Positions 11,791 through 60,678 of a stretch of 64,000 bases of DNA are shown piece by piece. Origin of the DNA: Branchipolynoe longqiensis. Taxonomy: Eukaryota; Annelida; Polychaeta; Phyllodocida; Polynoidae. The stretch's first letter is position 1; the number at the start of each line of letters is the position of its first letter. The stretch spans positions 25,423,363-25,487,362 of the forward strand of contig CM059194.1 in assembly GCA_030323885.1 (NCBI GenBank), given 5' to 3'. The translations under genes were made by a program, and so were the position numbers. The notes beneath the pieces were generated by a model. The model ran no database searches. It saw only the letters and a list, made by a program, of their open reading frames with translations, and was not told the DNA's origin.

Positions 11791-11939
11791 TAATGGAGCA
11801 GTCACACTACGACGTGTTGGCCCGGCGTTGGACAACGCGTGCCAACGTGTTGTGTTTTTGGTCGAAACGTCGGAACCCGCCGGCAACGCGTTAGCACACG
11901 TCGGTACACTATGATTGACAGGTCGCTTTGATACAACGC

Positions 11940-12013
11940 GTCGGCGCGCGTCGCCCAGCGCCGAAAGTTTTGTGCTTGCACAAAACTTTCGGCGCTGGGC
12001 GACGCGCGCCGAC
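11940..12013. repeat. perfect palindrome, 36-bp arms, 2-bp loop
   Basis: Arms 11940-11975 and 11978-12013 are exact reverse complements, GC-rich outside (GTCGGCGCGCGTCGCCCAGC) and AT-rich at the centre (AAGTTTTGTGC / GCACAAAACTT), with loop TT. It could extrude as a cruciform. The central core is shared with 8254-8277. Confidence 0.95.
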
Positions 12014-12084
12014 GTGTTGCGTAGCGCGTTACGGGCGCGTTTGCAGGATGTACAAGCGCGTTGGAGGAACGTTGCTCGCACGTT

Positions 12085-13546
12085 GCTGTGTGTGTGTCTC
12101 TGTGTGTGTCTCTGTGTCTGTGTGTGTCTGTGTGTGTGTCTATGTGTCTCTGTGTGTCTGTGTGTGTGTCTCGGTCTGTGTCTCTGTCTGTGTCTCTGAA
12201 TGTGTCTCTGGCTGTGTCTCTGTCTGTGTCTCTGTCTGTGTCTCTGTCTCTGAATGTGTCTCTGTATGTGTCTCTGTCTGTGTCTCTGAATGTGTCTCTG
12301 TATGCGTCTCTGTCTGTGTCTGTGTCTGTGTCTGTGTCTGTCTCTGAATGTGTCTCTGTCTGTGTCTGTGTCTCTGTCTGTGTCTCTGAATGTGTCTCTG
12401 TCTGTGTCTCTGTCTCTGAATGTGTCTCTGTATGTGTCTCTGTCTGTGTCTCTGTCTGTGTCTCTGTCTGTGTCTCTGTCTGTGTCTCTGTCTGTGTCTC
12501 TGTCTGTGTCTCTGTATGTGTCTCTGTCTGTGTCTCTGTCTGTGTCTGTGTCTCTGTATGTGTCTCTGTCTGTGTCTCTGTGTGTGTCTGTCTTTGAATG
12601 TGTCTCTGTCTGTGTCTCTGTCTGTGTCTCTGTCTCTGAATGTGTCTCTGTCTGTGTCTGTGTCTCTGTATCTGAATGTGTCTGTGTCTCTGTCTCTGAA
12701 TGTGTCTGTGTCTCTGTATGTGTCTGTGTCTGTGTCTGTGTCTCTGTCTCTGAATGTGTCTCTGTCTCTGAATGTGTCTGTGTCTGTGTCTCTGTCTGTG
12801 TCTCTGTCTCTGAATGTGTCTCTGTCTGTGTCTCTGTCTGTGTATGTGTCTCTGTCTGTGTCTCTGAATGTGTCTCTGTCTGTGTCTCTGTCTGTGTCTC
12901 TGTCTGTCTGTGAATATGTCTCTGTATGTGTCTGTGTCTGTGTCTATGTATGTGTCTCTGTCTGTGTCTCTGTCTGTGTCTCTGTGTGTGTCTCTGTCTG
13001 TGTGTGTATGTCTCTGTGTATCTGTGTCTGTGTGTGTGTCACTGTGTGTCACTGTGTGTCTGTGTGGGTATGTGTGTGTGTGTCTGTGTGTGTGTCTCTG
13101 TCTTTGTCTCTGTCTCTGTATGTGTCTCTGAATATGTATCTGTCTGTGTCTCTGTCTGTGTCTGTGTATGTGTCTGTGTCTCTGTCTGTGTCTCTGTCTG
13201 CATCTATGTATGTGTCTCTGTGTCTCTCTGTGTCTGTGTGTGTGTCTCTGTGTGTCTATGTCTCTGTGTCTCAGAGAGAGAGATAGAGAGAGACACACAC
13301 AGACACAGAAAGAGACACATACAGAGACACAGATAGAGACACAAACAGAGACATATACAGAGACACATACACACAGACAGAGACACAGAGAGAGACACAG
13401 AGAGAGACACATACAGAGACACAGACACATTCAGAGACAGACACAGACAGAGACACAGACACATACAGAGACACATACAGAGACACAGACAGAGACACAT
13501 TCAGAGACACAGACAGAGACACAGACAGAGACACAGACACACACAA
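12085..13546. repeat. (TCTGTG)n / (CACAGA)n array with strand switch
   Basis: From 12085 to about 13270 the plus strand reads TCTGTG with variants (TCTCTG, TATGTG, AATGTG). After a short TCTCAGAGAGAGAGATAGAG junction the plus strand reads the complement (CACAGACAGAGA) to 13546. The array therefore holds an inverted junction. All long open frames here are repeat artefacts. Confidence 0.95.
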
Positions 13547-13718
13547 TTGGGTCAAGCGGCATTGTTTTTCCACCGGCGGAACACGTTGGCACCGCGCCAA
13601 TAACGAGCCAAGTTTTCTCAAAACTCGCCGAAAAGTTTGACGTTTCTCGACGGGTTGAATATATTTAAGCGCGTTGGCGGCACGCCGGAATACACGTCGT
13701 AGTGTGACTGCTCCATTA

Positions 13719-14140
13719 TACACACAATAACTATTGACAATGAGTAAAGTATCACCAGCAACTACATAAACACATTCACGCACCTGGCCCTATATACCTT
13801 TTACACCAATAGACCATTGGCATTCCCCCAACAATGTGTTTTATCGGAATATTTGACAATACTATAGCATATCATTTTCAGATAATTGAAATTAATTGCT
13901 AAAAGTTTTTTTTGTTCACAGCAAGGCCAACATTTTATTTCAAAATAAGTGTTAGCCACATAAAATCAGCCAATCAGATGCCAGATAGGCGGCCTTTAAG
14001 AGCAATTTGCCACCAGTACTTGGGTCGCTAACAGAGTAGGTCAACATCCAGTACATTGGGCCTAATGCATACCCTCTCTTAGGGTCATGGAGCGGTCAGG
14101 CTAGACCAATGCACGGGATGGTCTGCATCGTTTTGCTGCT
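13719..14140. other. non-coding stretch
   Basis: AT-rich to 14040, then ordinary composition. I see no gene or repeat arms. Confidence 0.4.
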
Positions 14141-27915: not shown

Positions 27916-27978
27916 CTTTAACAAGTGATTTGGGAAAACAAACAAACAAACAAACACACAAAGAGAGGCGCCACCTAC

Positions 27979-28783
27979 CGTGACGCGATGACACTGTTCG
28001 TGGCCGTATCAATGGCCTTCACTTGCGTCCCGAATGTGAAGACGGGCACATCGGAGCCAAACTTGGTGAACACATACTGCGACGAGGACACGGCCCCCGA
28101 CGCGTCGAACACCTTCCCGTCGGCCACCGCGCCCAGTGACGTCACGGCGCCGTTCGTCGCGTCCCCGCCGGCACCCGGCTCCACCTTGGGCACAATGCCG
28201 CTCACGTGACTGACGGCGTCGCTCTGATCACCCGACGCACGCGGCGCCTTGCGCATGCGCATGTCGTCGTCACTGACAATCCTCCAAAAGCTGCTCGAGT
28301 CCATGGTAGTGAGCGGGTCGTCGAGGTGCAAGTGCTCGGAGCGCTCAACCAGCGACAGCTGGGTGTTCATATCGTGCAGCGTGCCGTCCGGCGAGTACAG
28401 CGACTCCTCCACCGGTGACGTCACGCCCGGCGACGTCAGAGGCGACGTCGAGTCGCTGTCATTGTCCACCGCCAGGTGGCGGATGACGTCAGAACTGATG
28501 GTCTGCAGCACTTGCATGCTGCCGCCCGCGCCGCCCGGCGACAGCTCGCCGGGCGGCGCGGGCTTCTCCAAACTCCGAAGCAGAGTCTGGGCGGGCGTCT
28601 GTGCCGCAGCGGCGGGACCTGTGTAGATTGTGAGTCCGTTGCGCACTGAGGAGGAAGGGGAGGGGTCATGGTGGCCATGTGGCTCGGGCGGCGTGGCGTC
28701 GCCATCCTGGGTGGTGGTGGTGTCTGGGCAGGAGTTCCTCTGGAGGTCGTTCCCGATGATACCGAACCCGAGGTCGACTCCAG
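27979..28783 (-). CDS. internal exon of an unidentified host gene (268 codons)
   Basis: Open for its full length on the minus strand between acceptor ATTACAG (28784-28790) and donor GTAGGTGG (27978 downward). A CTAAT-type branch site and a TC-rich tract lie upstream of the acceptor. GC content and CpG density are far above the surroundings. The first two bases complete a split codon; the last codon is split after two bases. The peptide begins GVDLGFGIIGNDLQ. It is rich in Ser/Thr/Pro, Gly and Asp, has proline-directed sites (SPLTSPGVTSP), an acidic run (DNDSDST), a short basic patch (MRMRK) and a more hydrophobic end (YVFTKFGSDVPVFTFG). I see no folded-domain signature. The composition suits a disordered part of a nuclear or signalling regulator, which is inference. 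The phase fits the exon at 41208-41285. Stop-free frames on the plus strand here are GC-rich shadows. Confidence 0.8.
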
Positions 28784-28939
28784 CTGTAATTTACAATTAT
28801 AAATTAGGCCAAACATTATGTAAACAAAGCTTCAAACCTACCTTTTTTTCCTCTTTCTTAAAAAAAACAACAAAAAAACTATTTCATGGGCATCACCATT
28901 TGGAAGTTAAGTCCTGCCCAACCCTTTTTATAATAGAAA

Positions 28940-35827: not shown

Positions 35828-36350
35828 GCTCCCTGATATCAACACACTACCCAGGCCTGCCTGTCTATGCGGCTCCTTCTTGCCTTAGAGGTCAGTACTG
35901 GAGAAGTACAGATGTTGGTATATTCAACTACGTCACTTCTCCGGTTCGTTCAACTACGTCCACTAACGTGTATGTGACCAGCCTTTAAGGCCCGGTCACA
36001 TACACGTACAAGAGAAGTAAGGATGCCAGTACGTTCAACTACGTTAGCCTCCACTACCTTCAACTACGTCCACTAATGTGTATGTGACCGGGCCTTTAGA
36101 CTGCAATAAATGTTTAAAGAGTGCACTAATATCTAGTTTAAACAATTTTATGCGTTCCTTGAATTATACAGCGTTAATGCTAATGCTAGTGTAGTGGTTT
36201 GCACTGACCTCTCAGGCAAGGAGCCACATAGACAGGCAGGCGTGGGTAGCATGTTGATATCAGGAAGCCCAGGTGGTGTAATGGTTAGCACACTGGCCCG
36301 GAATGCAAAGAGATGAGGGTTCGAGTCCCGCTCTAGACACAATATTTCCC
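35828..36350. mobile_element. tRNA-like-arm palindrome, rearranged copy, with GGCCCGGTCACAT MITEs
   Basis: The right-arm part (35828-35895) and left-arm part (36180-36350, including TGGTGTAATGGTTAGCACAC and GGGTTCGAGTCCCGC) are the same as the arms at 49511-49871. They are separated by one partial (35890-35986) and one complete (35987-36098) GGCCCGGTCACAT MITE in tandem. Confidence 0.7.
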
Positions 36351-49510: not shown

Positions 49511-49871
49511 TAGTGTAGTGGTCTGCACTGACCTCTCAGGCAAGTAACCACATAGACAGGTAGGCGTGGGGAGTGTGTTGGTATCAGGGAGCCTAGGTGG
49601 TGTAATGGTTGGCACACTGGCCCGGAATGCAAAGAGATGTGGGTTCGAGTCCCGCTCTAGGCACAATAATTCCCATGGTCACGGCACCAGTGTCATGGGG
49701 GTGATGAAAATGGGAAATACTGTGCCTAGAGCGGGACTCGAACCCACATCTCTTTGCATTCCGGGCCAGTGTGCTAACCATTACACCACCTAGGCTCCCT
49801 GATATCAACACACTCCCCACGCCTACCTGTTTATGTGGTTACTTGCCTGAGAGGTCAGTGCAGACCACTAC
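49511..49871. mobile_element. 360-bp palindrome with tRNA-like arms
   Basis: Arms 49511-49667 and 49719-49871 are near-perfect reverse complements around a loop of about 50 bp. Each arm contains an A-box-like TGGTGTAATGGTTGGCAC and a B-box GGGTTCGAGTCCCGC. It is therefore a head-to-head pair of tRNA-derived SINE units or a TIR element built from them. A rearranged relative is at 35828-36350. Confidence 0.85.
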
Positions 49872-55424: not shown

Positions 55425-55585
55425 ACGTTTAACAGTGTGCGCATTTGGGCAACATGCTGTGGAAATATACTCGACCTTTTTGTTGTTGGGTTTCTTTTTC
55501 AGGACCGAGCTGGGAACTATATTGTCGAGTATACAGTGTATCTGCAATACTGATTAGTTGATAAGATAGCCTAGCTCAACTGTCG

Positions 55586-55928
55586 GTTTGTTGGTTGTTG
55601 GCGTTTTACGTCCTGCCAACATCTAAGGTCATATCAGGACAGGTACCGACTTGTGACAGTGTACACTCATGGTGCCTTTATAGTGTTGCCACACTGGAAG
55701 GTCAGGCCAGCAGCACCATGACCTGATCTCACTCAGTCATATTATCCCGACACTGAGCCGACCAGTCCTTGCCATAACCTAATAATGCTGAACGACTGGC
55801 TAGGAAGCGACAAGTATCAATTTTTAAGTCAGGGTTGACTCGACTAGGGTTCCAACCCGTGGGTTCGAATGTCACGATCTACCAAAACGGGAGACGGACA
55901 CTCAACTCATTCGGCCATCCCGTCTGAT
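55586..55928 (-). mobile_element. SINE, full-length, abutting the 4.35-kb TIR element
   Basis: Head ends CATTCGGCCATCCCGTCTGA; the TIR element starts 14 bp further on. Confidence 0.85.
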
Positions 55929-56719
55929 CACTGTCGGGTTGTAGTGAGGGGGTCAAATGCATATTTTGGCCTGACCTGGAAAGTGGCTCTAAAGTTTTTT
56001 TCTCAGTGTTTTCATGTTATATAGGTATTGTACTCTATGAAACTGTGCGATGGCATTCTCCCATCATTGAGCATTTTCATAAAACAAGTTTTATACAATT
56101 GCGGTTATCGGGACCCAAATTACTGATTTTTGGGGGGTGGGGAAATAGAAATATCCTTATTATCTAGGCCCCTATATTTATATTATCCAGTATGAAATAG
56201 GTTAACTCTGAAATTGACTCCTGCCAGTGGACTTCCCATATATAATATCCTGCTGCGACCTTGTGGCCTATGTTACAGGTTCTGTTCTGGAAGCCACCTA
56301 GTGACAAGAAATAGACTTATCACTCAACCACAAGGCTTGTTGATCCACACTTCATTCGTCATTTATCCCTTAATTAGTGGTTTCTGAGGATATGTCATTG
56401 GACAGCATGATGTTATGAGGCCCAGAGAATAGGTAGGTACCAACCAGACCACTGTTAAAGTTCATGTAAATGTCCAGCTACAAGTTGAAGTGTGTCTCTG
56501 AGTGATAATTGGTGAATTTGCTGGCTGAATTATGAACTCCTGGCCCAAAGGATATATCCCTGAAGGGCATGTATGTATTTATTGATGATATGGTCAGTCG
56601 TAACTTCGTTCTGCTCAGATAAGACATTGGAAATGAAGTGAAACTACTGCTTAAAGATCTGATAATTCTATTGAAAAGCAGAATTTAGGTATTACTGAAA
56701 ATTACTGATTTCCACAAAA

Positions 56720-59666
56720 ATGATTACTGAAAACTACCCTAAATTACTGAAAACTGCTATCTACATTACTGATATTTGGAGACTTAGAGAGGTTGTCAAT
56801 GATGTGGACTCTCCAGAGGACCTCACAAACAAGTTGGAGAGAGCTGCAGCCAAAACCCCTACTGTAAAATTGAAACCTGTCTTCATAATGATGCTCTATC
56901 TGAGAGATGTGAGGAAGAAATTAAAAGAAGGATAACAATAGCCCGAACAACATTCACCCAAAATGTATAGAGTGTTAACATCAAGTAAGATATTAATACA
57001 AACAAGGAAGTGTATTCTTCAGTGTTATGTGTGGTCTACTCTAATGTATGGGGCATGGACAATCTCTAAGAAAATGTACAAACGTTTAGCAGCATTTGAG
57101 ATGTGGACTTATCGAAGGATCATGAAAATATCATGGACAAAGAAGATCACCAACAAAGAAGTTCTCAGAAAAATTAAAAATAAGAAAAGCTTGTTTGCCA
57201 CTATACAGACAAAGAAACTTATTTATTTTGGCCACATCATTCGTCAGAGTTCAATATACCGTACATTGTTGGAAGGGAAGGTGAATGGCAGCAGAGGGAG
57301 AGGGAGACCAAGAACATCATGGTTTACAAATATTTCACAGTGGACAGGCTTGAATTATTCACAGTCTATCAGAACAGCACAACATCGGGACAAGTGGAGA
57401 ACCATTGCATCCAACCCTCGACTAGAGGATGGAACTATTGATTGATTGATCTGAGAGCTGAGAAAGAAGGAGAATTTTACTTACACCTTAGAGCAATTGA
57501 ATTGATGCTGCCTTTTTTCTTTGCCGCCGGGCACATCCATGATGTTAGGTATGCCACATATTATATCATATCAATGAAAGCTCTCCCACAACATGTTCTA
57601 CAACATTTCACCAAAGGGGACCATGTTGTGAGGCACATTGATGGCATATGGAATGGAATCTGGTCTGACATGTTTATCGAGACCACATTCATGAGATATG
57701 GCAATGGAAAGCATGGCATAATAGGCATCACACTTAACCCCGAAGCTTTGAAATCTTGGGCATTGAGCCTACATGTCTGCGGTCAGATAGCTGCCGATGT
57801 AGCTGAAATGCGAGGTGATGAGAGTGTAGCCAGGCAGGCAAGCGTGCACAAAGAAGAAAGCAAATCCAGGATCAAATCTGATGCAAAGGATCGACAGGAC
57901 ATAAGAGTGAAGATGACCCAGTGCATACCACCACTTGACCACGAGCAGCATCCAGAGGGATCAATTGTGAACATTGTTACTGGAAGGGTACACTCATCTT
58001 CAACAGTTGATGTCCACAAAGCAATTGAAATCGGGAGCAAACAATCCGGGGAATTTACAGAGGCTTTGCCTCGAGGCTTTCATCACAAGATTGAAAGAAG
58101 AATAACTTCAATGGCAGACACAAAGAAGTCTGTAAATATCGGCAGACAGAACGTTTTTGATACAAACCTAATCTACAGTTGTGTCATATGTCTGCAGGCC
58201 AGTAATAGGGATATAGACATTGACCATCTGATGTCCCATGAATTGGCTCCACTGCCAATGGCTCTCTTTGCAGACTCTGGTGATATGCGGATATCCACAT
58301 CTAAATCCATCTTGAAAAGACATATGAAAATTGAGGTGTCATCAAGAGTAGCCCATGAAGAAATTGAAATCACTGTCATTGATGGGTGTGCCCTTCTCTG
58401 GATACCTGGTTGGCCTGCTGTTGGAAATGTGCAGACTTACATTGATGACTTAAAGCACAAAATAGCAGAGAAGCTCTAGTCTTTGATAGATACAACAAAT
58501 TCAGCACCAAAGATTCAACACGATTAGCCAGGGGTACTGGCAGGGTCTATCAGTTGACACCCTCAACACCAATCCCCGCCCAGAAAGCAGTGTTGACTGT
58601 TACAGGCGATAAGAAGCAGCTCATTAAACTGATATGCGAGGACTTGTAAAGTGATGAAGACTTTGTTCAGAACCATAGACTTTTGATAACAGGACAGGAG
58701 GAAACTATCGAGATTAGCAAGGGCATTGTCATAGAAAGATGAGATCTGTACACCAGTCACGAGGAAGCTGACAATATTATAGTACAGCAGGCATTTATGG
58801 CAGCTTCAGAGGGGGCATCCGGTGTAGCTGTGTTGGCTGATGATACAGATGTATGGGCCCTCCTGTTGCACCACTATCTCGAGCAGGATCTTGACATCCC
58901 AATTATAATGCAATCTCCTATACATGGAAGAAGTGTCATAGACATCAAAGCAACCACTGTCCAATATGCAGACCTCATTCCAAACCTGCTTGCAGGACAC
59001 TCCTTATCTGGATGTGATACTGTAGCAGGATGCTTTGGCATTGGGAAGAAGAAGATGTTGAACACTATAAAACAACACTCACTGAGTCTGCTTGGAGAAA
59101 TTGAGGCCCCCTGGCCTGAAGTAGTGAAGCAGGCAACTCAATTCGCTGTTGCTACTTATGGTCAGAAAAGCTGCCATACTCTCTGTGAGGCTAGAGCAAA
59201 GGTATGGAAGACCAGAATAGGCACGGGGAGCAGCACAATGCCAAAACTCTGTTCACTGCCACCAACTGATGCTGCTTTCCAGGAAAATCTGAAAAGAGCA
59301 CACCTACAAACATTCTTGTGGAAGAATGCCTTGAGGTTTGAGCCTCAGAAGTTAGACCCGTTAGAGTATGGATGGAGCAAAGATGGGGATATGCTCTGCC
59401 CAACTACAATTCCTGCAGGAAGTCAACTGGTCCCCGAGTACGTCCAAAAGATCATCAGTTGTGGCTGCTCCAGTGACACACCATGTGAAAGTATTCAATG
59501 TGGATGCAACAAAGCAGGAATGACTTGCTCAGTCTTCTGTGCCTGTCAGCAACAGGATGCAGTGTCAGTATGTCACAACAGGATGAATACTATATCACCT
59601 GATAGTGATGATGAAACAAGCGATGAAGGGGAATATGGTGATGATTACAATAACACTGGTGATTAA
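56720..59666 (+). pseudogene. PIN/FEN1-like nuclease + CXC-domain protein gene, degraded
   Basis: Read in pieces: 56720-56906, LINE insertion, 57458-about 58470, frameshift at about 58460-58480, then frame continues to 59666 with stops TAA 58647 and TGA 58740. Removing the LINE plus one target repeat (551 bp) restores the frame exactly. About 800 codons remain. Landmarks: LHLRAIELMLPFFFAAGH, then GIWNGIWSDMFIETTFMRYG (57649-57708), both typical of a family widespread in cnidarians, molluscs and fish. After these come LVFDRY in the shifted frame near 58479, a HEEADNII block just before 58797, ADDTD (58836-58850), SGCDTVAGCFGIGKKK (59007-59054), and a CXC cluster (59460-59546, CGC...CGC...CAC). 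The acidic set and the GCD...GIGK helix recall PIN/FEN1/XPG nucleases; the cluster recalls Tesmin/TSO1. Nuclease activity is inference. The N-terminus is probably missing. Confidence 0.8.
56907..57448 (+). mobile_element. 5'-truncated LINE, 3' end of reverse transcriptase ORF
   Basis: Flanked by an exact 9-bp duplication ATCTGAGAG (56898-56906, 57449-57457). It encodes the C-terminal part of a non-LTR retrotransposon polyprotein: ILQCYVWSTLMYG, MWTYRRIMKISW, YFGHIIR and GRGRPRTSW, ending ...DGTID* in an (ATTG)n tail, a pattern common in RTE-type elements. A frameshift near 56960 joins the first part (EEEIKRRITIARTTF) to the rest. It is a dead-on-arrival copy inserted into the gene above. Confidence 0.88.
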
Positions 59667-59817
59667 TGATGTTTATGATATAAGAAAGATTTTAAAACCA
59701 AATACAGAATATGTACAATTTTGGTGGTTTAGTAACCTATGAATAGGTACACCATATGCAGATCATTTACGTAGCCAGATTTGATGTAATCTTTGAACAT
59801 GAAATCATAAAGAACTG

Positions 59818-59823
59818 AATAAA
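59818..59823 (+). terminator. poly(A) signal of the element gene
   Basis: AATAAA 150 bp after the stop codon of the CXC gene, before the right TIR. Confidence 0.55.
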
Positions 59824-60678
59824 TATTATGTATTCTAGCATTTCCTTCGTCAGTATTGAGCTCATGAGACCTTATAACAAGCCATTAGACATTATAACAA
59901 TGGATACAGGTTCAGTATAATGAGAAATATATCAAAGTGTACAAACAATGCTGAATTGTACACATTTGACCCAGATATTTGAACTTCGACCTTGACCTAT
60001 GACTTTGACCCACCAATAGGTATGGCCAAGATACACCGATATGCAAAAATTCAAGACCCTAGCTTGAATGCTTGTGAAGATATAAGGGTATTTCTATTTT
60101 CCCCACCCCCCTAAAACTAGTGTTTTGCGTCCCGATAGCCGCAATTGTATAAAACATGTTATATGAAAATGCTCAATGATCGGAGAATGCCATCACACAG
60201 TTTCACAGAGTACAATACCTATATAACATGAAAACACTGAGAAAAAAACTTTAGAACCAATTTCCAGGTTCAGCTCCTGGCCCCCTGACTATTGTTGATG
60301 TGCGTTGACAGGATACGCCTAGCCTTAATAATGATAAGTTAAATATATTTAACTGAACGACGAGAGGAGAAGAGACGGGGGTAGGCTGGAATGACAAGTT
60401 ATTTAAAGCTGCATAGCGCGATGACAACCACAACTTAGACTCGTACCCCTTTTGATATATATATCAAATCCCCGGACTTTTCAGGACCTCCAGTGCAAAA
60501 TTCCAGGATGTTTCAAGATGTTTATTAAATTAAAGTACCCCGAAGCATGACAATAGTGATAGTCGATTCACTGTGTAAGATGTGATGTGTGAACAAGCAT
60601 AACTCTTTTAGCAACGAACACATGTAGTTTCAAGAGGCGGGATAACAAACAAAAGTCACTTTAAATAGAAAACATCAC

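Follow-up and report, generated by a model that had tools for sequence, protein, structure and literature searches.

What moves a DNA element whose only visible gene appears to encode a nuclease? The question is raised by a 64,000-nucleotide stretch (here, the window) of the Branchipolynoe longqiensis genome (GCA_030323885.1, contig CM059194.1, forward strand, 25,423,363–25,487,362). At 55942..60291, a preliminary description had noted two inverted repeats enclosing a single gene for a PIN/FEN-type nuclease, seen no DDE transposase, and proposed a candidate new transposon class. We find that the element, a dead and non-autonomous copy, very probably belongs to a cut-and-paste family in the AcademX lineage of the Academ superfamily, a lineage that pairs a DDE transposase with an XPG/FEN-type nuclease. 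Ahead of the nuclease, the full-length protein carries a DDE-like half, of which the window copy keeps only the stretch around the glutamate; the notion of a transposon class lacking a DDE transposase is thereby corrected. The element and its ends are as follows.

55942..60291 (+): whole element, a probable Academ-type DNA transposon copy, internally deleted; 4350 bp counting a 543-bp nested insertion
55942..56160 (+): left terminal inverted repeat (TIR), outer end TAGT
60079..60291 (-): right TIR, outer end TAGT read inward
55939..55941 (no strand): target site duplication TTG, left copy
60292..60294 (no strand): target site duplication TTG, right copy

The ungapped TIR cores (55974–56145 and 60098–60269) are 92% complementary over 172 nt; in an alignment of the whole arms, 187 of 223 columns are identical and 14 are gap columns. 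Searching the source genome (1.85 Gb, 1914 contigs) with each arm, we scored 40 of 165 candidates per arm, and all 40 match, at 95–100% for the left arm (window among them) and 97–100% for the right. We then fetched the 20 left-arm loci that follow the window in rank, with ~5 kb on each side. Both ends are present in 15, spaced 3.3–4.8 kb apart, all with element-internal sequence between them. The protein is matched at 19 of the 20 loci, the fetched stretch of L015 having no match, and no unrelated transposase was seen between TIRs at the fetched loci. Target duplications were called from flank identity: 3-bp flanks are identical in all 16 two-ended copies (window included), compared with just 2 of 60 shifted control positions around the 15 fetched ones. 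They also match (GTT) in L032, picked for its arm spacing of ~8.2 kb. Arms, multicopy loci and duplications together confirm the enclosed gene as part of a mobile element. Over the gene, copies differ by a mean of 3.2% (190 pairs from 21 sufficiently overlapping copies; the closest pair, the window and L009, differs by 1.35%), from which we infer one fairly recent burst.

The element sits directly after the right duplication of an adjoining repeat at 55580–55941, similar to a short interspersed nuclear element (SINE), with its own duplication CTGTCGG[T/G]TTG. This SINE-like repeat has 30 more matching pieces inside the window.

Within the element, the gene survives as a remnant, read here against the full-length relative P0004.

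57442..59666 (+): transposase gene remnant matching P0004 residues 720–1467, broken by a frame change and by two in-frame stops
57679..57681 (+): codon of the conserved glutamate of the DDE-like half (SDMFIETTFMRYG)
58371..59110 (+): roughly delimited nuclease part of PIN/XPG/FEN type
59460..59573 (+): CXC-like cysteine cluster at the C-terminus, with eight cysteines that never vary among 33 full-length relatives

The match covers P0004 residues 720–1060 and 1067–1467, beginning past both transposase aspartates (422/425 and 594). The window copy has no complete transposase: glutamate, nuclease part and cysteine cluster are retained, and both aspartates are lost. The motifs of the preliminary description are found, though not in a single reading frame, being split over frames 57442–58479, 58449–58649 and 58743–59666; codons for all seven conserved nuclease acidic positions survive across these three frames. 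A short further gene piece lies upstream of the nested insertion (frame 56699–56935; few residues, homology by eye only). Pfam returned nothing above cut-off for the window open reading frames (ORFs).

The extent of the internal deletion varies between copies: of 21 window-family loci with a protein match, 8 begin it at P0004 residue 458, 4 at 653, 2 at 810 and the remaining 7 at other residues. Because L026 retains residues 7–124 inside its element and L031 retains 251–1436, copies with window-type TIRs probably descend, judging by these sequences, from an element that carried the entire gene. To gauge selection, differences in 20 window-family copies (window included) were mapped on the 896-residue frame of L027, dropping columns covered by fewer than 8 copies. 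Singleton variants comprise 350 non-synonymous, 100 synonymous and 25 stop changes; shared variants comprise 63, 29 and 4. The shared non-synonymous to synonymous ratio of 2.2 is slightly below the neutral 2.4–3.0 (a range set by the assumed transition bias), on small numbers. The truncated protein thus bears no clear sign of being kept. We rejected it as a functional helper, its reading frame varying much as neutral sequence would, and this near-neutral change leads us to take the deleted copies, the window's included, for passengers.

What the window copy has lost is supplied by its relatives. A search of 5.8 billion proteins, scoring the 7999 best candidates, found 225, of which 120 are listed; 46 of these 120 cover P0004 nearly end to end. 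Among the matches listed are proteins from Holothuria, Pinctada, Nematostella and Branchiostoma, some named uncharacterised or CXC-domain protein, and two rows labelled as a Sedimenticola metagenome-assembled genome, which we took for contamination. Full-length members run from N-terminal cysteine/histidine motifs through the DDE-like half and nuclease half to the C-terminal cysteine cluster. In an 84-row alignment, counting the rows that cover each column, the DDE-like triad is invariant (D 74/74, D 78/78, E 82/82) and the nuclease acids nearly so (P0009 numbering: D733 84/84, D779 84/84, E880 80/82, D882 82/83, D905 81/81, D907 81/81, D963 82/82). DUF6589 matches 15 of the 33 full-length proteins weakly (best E 2.5e-4, below its cut-off) and has no mention in the literature searched; no helicase family appears among the Pfam matches of the 33, L029's protein included. 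When solved structures were searched by sequence, P0004 drew a single row at chance level (thymidylate kinase, E 0.85), and a profile of alignment A2 drew none.

Structure models (predicted local distance difference test scores of 88.7 and 86.4) place the first aspartate on a strand, the second just past a strand and the glutamate on a helix after a helical insertion, a layout familiar from hAT-like transposases. Structure comparison of the first model puts the nuclease half within the PIN/FEN superfamily, of EXO1/FEN1 type, bearing out the preliminary description on this point; it combines the PIN-like fold and conserved acidic residues of XPG/FEN members. The VIA list for this model is filled by the nuclease half and is uninformative on the DDE half. 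A viral structure library returned 13 matches at E <= 0.001 (match ranges not shown), the named ones mostly XRN/XPG/FEN-type nucleases or uncharacterised proteins.

Intact relatives reside in the same genome. A stop-free frame of 1483 residues occurs at four places, two of which were fetched (L029 and L030). These are elements of 6235 and 6233 bp at two chromosomal sites, and their 99.9% identity suggests very recent transposition. Their arms align over 310 bp at 95.8%, with ends TAGTCCGG...CCGGACTA, and the flanks are GTA/GTA and AAT/AAT. Each holds one ORF of 1481 residues, all other ATG-started ORFs having 129 residues or fewer; relatives of the protein are, then, flanked by TIRs. In a FastTree phylogeny of relatives of at least 600 residues, the L029 protein and the window-family L027 protein fall on different branches. 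A TAGT end and a nearby ACCTGGA stretch within the arm are common to both families. That same-genome relatives are TIR-element transposases offers a possible reason why such animal proteins are multicopy.

The AcademX nuclease is of XPG type, and the superfamily and this lineage were reportedly described by Kapitonov and Jurka in 2010 and Kojima in 2020. The present family shows TIRs and a fixed-length duplication, D, D and E conserved in full-length members, and an encoded nuclease, as expected of DDE cut-and-paste elements and of AcademX respectively. According to PMC10045372, AcademX elements encode a nuclease besides the DDE transposase and duplicate 3 or 4 bp of target, AcademH elements encode a helicase and duplicate 9 or 10 bp, and duplication length is tied to the encoded enzyme. 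Every copy checked here has 3 bp and the protein a nuclease; AcademH has the superfamily name in common and differs in both features. We class the window family as a new, mostly defective family within the already named Academ, not as a new transposon class. Differences from AcademX are that the window copy is internally deleted and inactive. Three points weigh against the placement: it is made by description rather than direct sequence comparison with Academ proteins, Pfam found nothing above cut-off in the relatives, and Foldseek returned nothing significant for the DDE-containing model, leaving fold support for the DDE half weak.

The first two of these points would suit a genuine DDE-plus-XPG transposon outside Academ, from an undescribed superfamily or an unusual branch of another. 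We think this improbable, since AcademX is itself described by a DDE transposase together with a nuclease and target duplications of 3 or 4 bp (PMC10045372) and the element size is close to that of bivalve Academ elements of several kilobases (100 curated, mean length 5565 bp, in the portion of PMC10294476 consulted). Academ-1 is listed for the clam Mercenaria mercenaria (1.86 Gb, 19 chromosomes; PMC8905726). A new class, with the PIN/FEN nuclease as sole mobiliser of the element, could draw on the weak fold evidence, on the near-invariance of the seven nuclease positions and on the window copy retaining no more than the nuclease half and the last part of the DDE-like half. It is very unlikely: full-length relatives and intact same-genome elements carry a DDE-like half in which D, D and E never vary, and the truncated copies show no clear selection on the reading frame. 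Moreover, long TIRs with 3-bp duplications are ordinary for DDE transposons. Least credible of all is that a TIR element captured a host gene; some relatives are named CXC-domain proteins, as a host gene might be, but the protein is multicopy, has a DDE-like half, and is encoded by the sole large ORF in intact elements that have TIRs and target duplications.

For the preferred Academ reading, the full-length protein would bind the TIRs, its DDE domain would cut and join the element ends, and the nuclease may process DNA ends or flaps as the element excises or integrates. The same protein could have mobilised deleted copies, the window's included, in trans. Other DDE transposases are accompanied by nucleases, as in KolobokE, KolobokD and KolobokP, although those are lambda-exonuclease-like, DnaQ-like and His-Me finger enzymes (PMC9587614, in part). 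In fold and in conserved acidic positions the nuclease half matches EXO1, FEN1 and XPG; unlike them, it follows a DDE-like half in a fusion protein encoded by a transposon. A tentative and rather doubtful idea is that, in this lineage, one polypeptide couples a DDE transposase to an EXO1/FEN-like nuclease that performs a step for which the transposase or host repair is usually responsible (cutting the second strand, removing flaps or processing gaps), and that this sets the 3-bp duplication. Intact and very young copies in this genome make the idea testable. The 99.9% identical pair would be good material on the role of a FEN/EXO1-like nuclease inside a transposase, which the parts of the literature searched do not answer.

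The deleted window copy is itself interrupted.

56907..57449 (+): nested insertion, a retrotransposon 3' end with a TTGATTGATTGA tail, by eye like a long interspersed nuclear element (LINE)
56899..56906 (no strand): 8-bp duplication TCTGAGAG, left of the insertion
57450..57457 (no strand): 8-bp duplication TCTGAGAG, right of the insertion

This insertion, absent from the preliminary description, was recognised because other copies are without it; L014, L019 and L020 also have it, at 97–99%. By eye its reading frame resembles the terminal part of a LINE reverse transcriptase; Pfam gave nothing above cut-off for this frame.

Elsewhere in the window, two convergent tRNA-Ser (GGA) genes lie ~57 bp apart at 49591–49664 (+) and 49722–49795 (-). 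A weaker tRNA match at 36267–36339 (+; 33.7 bits, not called by ARAGORN) is perhaps a tRNA-derived repeat. A long simple-repeat region (~11800–13800) holds, on either strand, open frames whose composition is repetitive, and a 271-residue frame of non-repetitive composition at 27975–28790 (-) is perhaps a host exon.
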